Shown one piece after another: positions 26,837-27,186 of a DNA stretch of 35,233 nt. Positions within the stretch are counted from its first letter, which is position 1. The number at the start of each line of letters is the position of its first letter. The translations under genes were made by a program, and so were the position numbers. Below the pieces are notes generated by a model. The model saw only the letters and a program-made list of their open reading frames with translations, did no database searches and had not been told where the DNA came from. The stretch comes from a virus: the IMG/VR virus record IMGVR_UViG_3300050821_003072, positions 1 through 35,233 of that record; one strand, given 5' to 3'.

Positions 26837-26911
26837 GCTGTCGCCTGTGGTGAAGGGCGCGGCTACTTCCTTGCATATGAAAGACGCCGCATCCGCTTGT
26901 TCCCAGACGGC
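26837..26911 (+). ncRNA. Y RNA-like unit 1 (short, no tRNA-like insert)
   Basis: Closing helix: GCTGTC (26837-26842) with GACGGC (26906-26911), continued by an imperfect TGTGG/TTCCCA. Inner helix: GCGGC (26859-26863) with GCCGC (26886-26890) plus C66-G83. The 5' strand has GTGA-N10-TACTTCC (26850-26870). The 3' strand has TCCGCTTGTTCCC (26892-26904). Both blocks recur in units 2 and 3. The loop is only a 16-nt TTC...GAA hairpin, so the tRNA-like module is absent. The last three bases are shared with the closing helix of unit 2, so the two helices compete or the ends differ slightly. All pairings were found by hand. Confidence 0.55.
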
Positions 26912-27060
26912 ATAACGAATCGGGTAGTGAAGAGATCGGTTACTTCCTTGTTAAGGACGAGGTCGTTGGTTCGAATCCAACTTGGGCGCGCAAGCGTTCA
27001 GTAGCTCAGGGGTAGAGCGCGTTGTCACCGTTTTCGCCTGTTCTCCCGGTTCGCTATGCC
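26909..27060 (+). ncRNA. yrlA: Y RNA (YrlA-like) unit 2 with circularly permuted tRNA mimic
   Basis: Closing helix: GGCATA-A-CGAATCGGG (26909-26924) pairs with CCCGGTTCG-C-TATGCC (27045-27060), 15 bp with one A/C mismatch. Second helix: CGGT-T-AC (26937-26943) with GT-C-ACCG (27024-27030). Inside lies a tRNA-like domain in permuted order. It has a short anticodon-stem-like helix (GACG/CGTT), variable AGGTC, and T arm GTTGG-TTCGAAT-CCAAC (26965-26981). The acceptor 3' strand TTGGGCGC is joined by a GCAA tetraloop to the acceptor 5' strand GCGTTCAG (8 bp). T8-A9 and the D arm GCTC-AGGGGTA-GAGC (27004-27018) follow. Bacterial YrlA RNAs are known to mimic tRNA and bind Ro60, and a Ro60 gene follows 162 nt later. 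Confidence 0.8.
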
Positions 27061-27061
27061 A

Positions 27062-27186
27062 GCAAGGCGTAGCGCGTGGTGATTGGTAGAGCTACTTCAA
27101 TGGTTGAAAAGCTGTCCCTACGGGGTCAGTAATTGCGGTTCGAGTCCGCGATGTGCTCTATCGCCTATTCCCGTGCTACGCTTTGC
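27062..27186 (+). ncRNA. Y RNA-like unit 3 with T-arm-like hairpin
   Basis: Closing helix of 15 uninterrupted pairs: GCAAGGCGTAGCGCG (27062-27076) with CGTGCTACGCTTTGC (27172-27186), including two G-T pairs. Inner helix: TAGAGC-t-AC (27087-27095) with GT-GCTCTA (27153-27160), with the same bulged or mismatched T as in units 1 and 2. Conserved blocks: GTGA-N10-TACTTC (27079) and ATCGCCTATTCCC (27160-27172). The insert has three hairpins: TTCAA-TGG-TTGAA, CTG(T)CCC-TAC-GGG(GT)CAG, and a T-arm-like TGCGG-TTCGAGT-CCGCG (27134-27150). The 5' strand has a D-loop-like TTGGTAGA. An alternative AGCGCGT/ATGTGCT pairing gives a class II tRNA-like outline but no sensible anticodon loop. Confidence 0.75.

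Follow-up and report, generated by a model that had tools for sequence, protein, structure and literature searches.

The virus record IMGVR_UViG_3300050821_003072 of IMG/VR, analysed here over its 35,233 bases and hereafter called the window, carries three tandem Y RNA units on the plus strand (26837-27186), just upstream of a phage Ro60 gene (27222-28532). The units share one scaffold and differ in the insert, or head, that it holds. Comparison with related loci reveals that the scaffold covaries and is linked to Ro60, that many heads are tRNA-like and form a hairpin with the geometry of an anticodon arm, and that the triplet in this hairpin turns over rapidly. It is quite possible, if short of probable, that the locus encodes a phage Ro60 ribonucleoprotein whose tandem Y RNAs act as tRNA or anticodon decoys; from these comparisons the RNAs are predicted to be made, to be bound by Ro60 and to serve as stable tRNA decoys or baits. 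The features of the locus are summarized in Table 1.

A scan by motif and pairing recovered a single scaffold in all three units, in agreement with a sequence-only reading of this DNA that had proposed three tandem units with differing inserts. The 5′ part of the frame consists of an outer helix with a bulged U, a box (GTGGTGAAG / GTAGTGAAG / GTGGTGATT), an inner helix of 8 nucleotides (nt) and TACTTC; these are followed by the insert, the 3′ strand of the inner helix, a second conserved stretch (CGCTTGTT / CGCCTGTT / CGCCTATT) and the 3′ strand of the outer helix. In the bulge region a G, the bulged U and two further G residues face CCC, with GUAG facing CUC in unit 2. The internal loop reads GYGNAG//CGCCUGUU, and the inner helix lies directly 5′ of UACUUC. 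The covarying stems that the sequence-only reading had pointed out are found in the inner helix, at the equivalent place in each unit: CGGC/GCCG at 26860-63/26886-89, CGGT/ACCG at 26937-40/27027-30 and GAGC/GCTC at 27089-92/27155-58. As in Y RNAs, the 5′ and 3′ ends pair as a long stem with a bulge and an internal loop, which is evident from scaffold fit, folding and covariation, and the units are encoded beside Ro60 on the same strand, with 36 nt between the end of the array and the start of the gene. We also note that ~4 nt at 26909-26912 belong both to the outer helix of unit 1 and to that of unit 2, so that the two helices cannot form fully at once; this shared stretch is a possible processing point.

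The protein itself is readily assigned. Its TROVE domain (PF05731) scores 55 bits against a Pfam cut-off of 23, and its profile matches the Ro60 and Rsr structures 9nen, 2nvo and 1yvp in the PDB. The DxSxS metal site of the vWA domain is present as DVSGS at residues 295-299, in which Asp295, Ser297 and Ser299 are invariant in 14 relatives; the match to VWA_2 falls just under its cut-off.

Relatives of Ro60 were gathered from 427 IMG/VR stretches, of which 80 were kept, and from 82 phage records. These provided 214 distinct units in 83 Ro60 loci, and 330 units in 128 loci once the loci from a motif scan were included. Across the 330 units, outer pairs 1-6 are 93-99% paired and employ several Watson-Crick types. 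The 3′ partner of each unit was picked by best pairing, a choice biased towards pairing, and two controls were therefore made. When 5′ halves were matched with another locus, the score was 12.8 as compared to 21.5. When an exact motif alone fixed the 3′ side (95 units), pairs 4 and 5 of the outer helix were 100% paired, in contrast to ~45% after shuffling, and used all four Watson-Crick types. The link to Ro60 was recovered by a motif scan that was blind to the protein: 65 of its 80 loci have Ro60 in the fetched DNA, nearly always shortly downstream and on the same strand. In the nearest relative, L019, whose Ro60 is 76% identical to that of the window, units 1 and 3 are kept in the same order with compensatory changes, and one extra unit is located between units 2 and 3. 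The earlier suggestion of Ro60-associated Y RNAs with exchangeable heads is thus supported by comparison across loci.

The three heads predicted in the sequence-only reading, namely a small TTC...GAA hairpin in unit 1, a permuted tRNA domain in unit 2 and three hairpins including a T arm in unit 3, are all present. The hairpin of unit 1 has a loop of 9 nt. The minimum free energy (MFE) fold of this unit is the scaffold, with a folding z of -1.2; as the single-sequence fold is weak, unit 1 draws its support from comparison and not from energy. Un-permuting the insert of unit 2 yields tRNA-Asn(GTT) by ARAGORN; the folding z is -2.2 and the MFE lies within 0.4 kcal of the scaffold form. Unit 3 folds most stably of the three (z -6.5), its counterpart in L018 and L019 possesses a compensated middle hairpin and a conserved T arm, and the same insert type recurs in L012, L013 and L014/L015. 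A D-loop-like TTGGTAGA had also been proposed to be displaced into the 5′ strand of unit 3. This assignment fails: the segment is the paired 5′ strand of the inner helix (GGTAGAGC with GCTCTAT(C)), and it is not conserved, L019 reading TTGTTTAG at that place.

Insert length is bimodal in the 214-unit set, and heads were classed by it as small (24 nt or less, 123 units), middle (25-65 nt, 68 units) or long (66 nt or more, 139 units). Un-permuted, 79 of 91 long inserts are recognised by ARAGORN, as against none of 91 dinucleotide shuffles, some of the calls being without one clear anticodon. In this arm order the Y stem is flanked by the D arm and the anticodon arm, and the UUC of the scaffold serves as the 5′ strand of the anticodon stem. 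A fully paired anticodon arm of 5 base pairs (bp) and 7 nt is found in 31 of 91 long inserts, whereas other loop lengths from 4 to 11 give 0-2; under the looser rule of at least 4 bp with a 7-nt loop, the count is 57 of 139 versus 7.5 in shuffles. The 7-nt loops carry U33 in 64 of 84 cases and a purine at position 37 (R37) in 73 of 84. Loops of 9 nt are also frequent (50/139) and are presumably the same stems counted minus their innermost pair. Loops with U36 mostly have A37, and those with G36 in long inserts mostly have G37, as in tRNAs. Among the small units, at least 4 bp with a 7-nt loop is observed in 24 of 123, compared with 5.0 in shuffles and 0-10 for other loop lengths. Their 7-nt loops have U33 in 43 of 56 cases in the larger set; in the first set U33 occurs in 33 of 39 such loops versus 3 of 13 with 8 nt and 11 of 30 with 9 nt. 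Part of the small class therefore looks like an anticodon-like hairpin presented alone. Middle inserts contain a T arm in 20 of 68 cases and a D-arm-like stretch in 2 of 68; unit 3 of the window is of this kind.

As a side observation, C is rare at position 36 among the canonical 7-nt loops of the long and small classes (3 of 97), where most loops have U or G. The binomial p is 5e-9 if a background of one quarter is assumed; this figure is an assumption about bacterial anticodon sets, and we do not build on it.

The anticodon triplet is the fastest-changing part of the heads, several-fold above the rest, in the pairs examined. Between close phages the scaffolds are nearly identical and the inserts more divergent, and of the last units of Xanthomonas phages Olaya and 10KY502B, one reads Asn(GUU) and the other Thr(UGU). 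Over nine pairs of orthologous units that have the hairpin, 11 of 27 triplet sites differ, in contrast to 54 of 1039 sites elsewhere in the unit (Fisher p 1e-7) and 4 of 36 at other positions of the loop (p 0.007); adding two further pairs gives 12/33 versus 63/1178. The window offers its own example, in that the anticodon loop of unit 2 is TTTGGGA (UGG) in L019 and the two loops differ at GTTA/TGGG, while the flanking bases are unchanged.

Arrays of this type also extend to a cellular chromosome. A genome scan with a single Ro60 protein found one cellular relative, and a Pfam search of 398 genomes from the phylum of that relative revealed nine with TROVE, one of which (G036) has the same array type together with RtcB. 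Its Ro60 is 52% identical to that of the window, and RtcB lies directly downstream, among metabolic genes; the locus (L231:4675-8400) combines RtcB and Ro60 with a row of four or more phage-type Y units, one of them with a CAU anticodon-like loop, CTCATAA. RtcB immediately follows Ro60 in the phage contig L033 as well, and is present in 7 of 55 Ro60 phage records. The presence of RtcB beside Ro60 suggests an RNA-repair setting, which we count in favor of decoys.

These observations can be joined into a mechanism. The common handle, comprising the outer helix with its bulged U, the internal loop, the inner helix and UACUUC, would bind the Ro60 encoded by the adjacent gene, and the head would mimic part of a tRNA. 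In some small units this part would be an anticodon-like hairpin alone; in unit 2 it would be an entire tRNA in circularly permuted form, the Y stem being inserted where the D arm would adjoin the anticodon arm; and in unit 3 an anticodon-arm-like hairpin, an extra hairpin and a T arm, without a D arm. The heads may occupy host enzymes that recognise tRNA, most likely the anticodon-cleaving nucleases of phage defence, and changes in those nucleases would drive the swapping of anticodons. The stronger form of the proposal, in which Ro60 particles display a changing anticodon repertoire as decoys for anticodon nucleases and an arms race exerts diversifying selection on the triplet, is more doubtful, and we put it forward as a possibility.

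Several observations weigh against decoys. The anticodon arm of unit 2 has only 3 bp, and the MFE prefers to it a competing hairpin, CCUUGUU-AAG-GACGAGG, which by inspection cannot form in L002, L019, L028 and L042. A strict 4-bp/7-nt anticodon hairpin is missing from 99 of the 123 small units, unit 1 of the window included. The pairs on which turnover was counted are few and hand-listed, some of them from one clade, and host tRNAs could have been captured repeatedly, leaving anticodons that are mere traces and not themselves selected. The RtcB counts given above come without a background rate. Finally, the anticodon nuclease examined in PMC7790460 did not cleave Salmonella YrlA, a bacterial Y RNA; this is compatible with a decoy role, since a competitor need not be cleaved.

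Among the alternatives, a tether comparable to the Deinococcus RYPER is the foremost, although we regard it as rather unlikely. The heads would bind host polynucleotide phosphorylase (PNPase), or nucleases of other kinds, and link these enzymes to Ro60 so that structured RNA is degraded, and the anticodon loop would be a relic. The Deinococcus complex of Rsr and Y RNA with PNPase is an established precedent (reviewed in PMC4726728 and PMC8394870), and varied heads on a common handle suit varied partners. A tether nevertheless leaves unexplained the re-formed anticodon arm of 5 bp and 7 nt with U33 and R37, the anticodon-like loops in units that have no D, T or acceptor arms, and the excess of triplet changes.

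Two further explanations appear improbable to a similar degree. In the first, the units mainly occupy the surface of Ro60 and control the access of misfolded RNA, so that head sequences matter little and drift. Y RNAs are known to gate Ro60 (PMC4726728), and small units are common and often open the array (the first unit is of the small class in 69 of 113 arrays, as against 46 expected). Drift is at odds with the recognisable tRNA structure retained by the heads (the 79 of 91 above) and their 7-nt U33 loops, and with changes that concentrate in the triplet rather than spreading over the head; a gate alone accounts for neither the diversity of the heads nor their anticodon features. The related suggestion in the sequence-only reading, that the insertless unit is a pure occupant, is doubtful for the small class, part of which resembles a small anticodon-like head; with its 9-nt loop, unit 1 of the window does not strictly share this resemblance. 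In the second, the heads are baits for host proteins that modify, repair or otherwise bind tRNA (RtcB, tRNA-fragment sensors), by which the phage would take over translation or RNA repair and not block nucleases. The tRNA-type modifications of YrlA RNAs (PMC8394870), the U36-A37 and G36-G37 pattern, the RtcB neighbors in G036 and L033, and the proposal that phage TROVE proteins, including those of jumbo phages, act together with a tRNA-like partner as a platform for RNA repair (PMC7824862) are in line with baits, while RtcB is absent from 48 of 55 Ro60 phage records, many of which are perhaps fragments. Decay from a YrlA gene is a highly implausible origin for units 1 and 3, for although unit 1 folds little better than shuffles, both units are kept in L019 with their compensatory changes and the same classes recur across the 128 loci with full covariation of the scaffold.

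Table 1. Positions of the Y RNA units, their parts and nearby elements in the window
Feature	Position	Strand	Description
Y RNA unit 1, small class	26837..26914	+	scaffold fit t=23.1
Unit 1 outer helix	26839-26850/26902-26912
Unit 1 inner helix	26856-26863/26886-26893
Unit 1 TACTTC	26864-26869
Unit 1 hairpin	26867-26881		TTC-CTTGCATAT-GAA
Y RNA unit 2, permuted tRNA domain	26909..27059	+	scaffold t=24.8; YrlA 28.5 bits
Unit 2 outer helix	26909-26927/27043-27059
Unit 2 inner helix	26933-26940/27027-27034
Unit 2 anticodon arm	26944-26958		TTCC-TTGTTAA-GGAC, GUU
Unit 2 T arm	26965-26981
Unit 2 acceptor-like stem	26982-27001		closed by GCAA
Unit 2 D arm	27004-27018
Y RNA unit 3, T-arm-only class	27060..27186	+	scaffold t=26.1
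Unit 3 outer helix	27062-27079/27170-27186
Unit 3 inner helix	27085-27092/27155-27162
Unit 3 first hairpin	27096-27108		TTC-AATGGTT-GAA
Unit 3 middle hairpin	~27111-27130
Unit 3 T arm	27132-27152		loop TTCGAGT
Ro60 / Rsr, TROVE domain	27222..28532	+	436 aa; PF05731 E 1e-14
Promoter/operator-like element	26804..26816	+	TTGCATCCTGCAA; just 5′ of unit 1
HNH/AP2 homing-type endonuclease	28529..29044	+	PF13392 + PF00847; phrog_99 HNH endonuclease

The array is preceded by a palindromic element. A TTGCA-N(1-4)-TGCAA-type element is situated within 105 nt before the first unit in 13 of 148 loci, compared with 0 of 145 in a control stretch further upstream; at the same place other loci have GTGCA..TGCAC palindromes, often with TTGACA. 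These elements look like a regulated promoter. A scan of the window for a sigma-70 consensus and a terminator found nothing. Downstream, the HNH/AP2 endonuclease gene overlaps the stop codon of Ro60; it is probably a neighbor and not part of the Y RNA system. Portal, major head and tail genes are present elsewhere in the window.

The analysis places hundreds of natural Y RNA variants in one frame, in which many heads mimic a tRNA and include an anticodon arm. It bears on the roles of bacterial and phage Y RNAs beyond gating and tethering, and points to the triplet of the anticodon as the site that changes fast. The proposed role of Y RNAs as competitors of anticodon nucleases can thereby be put to a direct test with culturable Caulobacter, Brevundimonas and Xanthomonas phages. 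If true, it would represent a counter-defence in which RNA mimics are held by a conserved protein, a relative of the human Ro60 autoantigen.

Of the known systems, phage tRNA genes are approached by heads that are tRNA-like enough for GenBank to annotate some as tRNA: tRNA-Thr in Xanthomonas phage 10KY502B (L011:2295-2362), tRNA-Ser in Brevundimonas phage Gurke (L012:2266-2340) and tRNA-Gln in Caulobacter phage CcrColossus (L014:1628-1695). These are permuted heads within Y scaffolds. Unlike tRNA genes, the heads are permuted, end in the Y stem and have a loop-closed acceptor stem; with this arm order aminoacylation is not expected, and ARAGORN detects no tRNA in genomic order, and hence no tRNA gene in that sense, in the window. 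In Gurke a permuted tmRNA (RF04321, 57.7 bits) is also located downstream of the Ro60 locus, at L012:5842-6187.

Phages that encode Ro60 and Y RNAs have been reported before (PMC12282133, citing Chen 2014). Listeria phage CKA15 is one example: the 2 kb upstream of its Rsr homologue give rise to three highly transcribed RNAs, for which a Y RNA identity was suggested (PMC12282133). The jumbo phages with TROVE proteins (PMC7824862) belong to the same group, which resembles the present locus in having a Ro60 homologue and candidate Y RNAs. The array architecture, the anticodon arm and the turnover of the triplet are not described in the accessible texts. The Deinococcus Y RNA and its RYPER (Rsr-Y RNA-PNPase) likewise pair a Ro60 orthologue with an adjoining Y RNA; this is in contrast to the phage loci, which are tandem arrays with tRNA-mimic heads of changing anticodon, known here from sequence.

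YrlA (RF02553), of Salmonella and other bacteria, is likewise comparable. Both have a Y-type stem encoded beside Ro60/Rsr and several Y RNAs per locus (two in one cellular locus), and the published description of YrlA comprises D, T and acceptor arms (PMC8394870); in the window only unit 2 has the permuted T arm, closed acceptor-like stem and D arm, which units 1 and 3 are without. The scaffold sequence differs: unit 2 reaches its YrlA score under permissive settings, below the gathering cut-off of 69, units 1 and 3 have no match, and Rfam yields none in the window at the gathering level. Further, the YrlA consensus is without an anticodon arm (structure line; PMC8394870), whereas the phage units form one with the UUC of their scaffold, and other phage units have just an anticodon-like hairpin, or a T arm but no D arm. 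YrlA was itself proposed, as a speculation, to be a competitor of an anticodon nuclease (PMC7790460); our literature search returned nothing fitting on phage tRNA-like decoys against such nucleases. YrlA-type Y RNAs, in phages too, are hence already known, and relative to the accessible literature the anticodon arm and the turnover of its triplet are, provisionally, what the phage arrays add.
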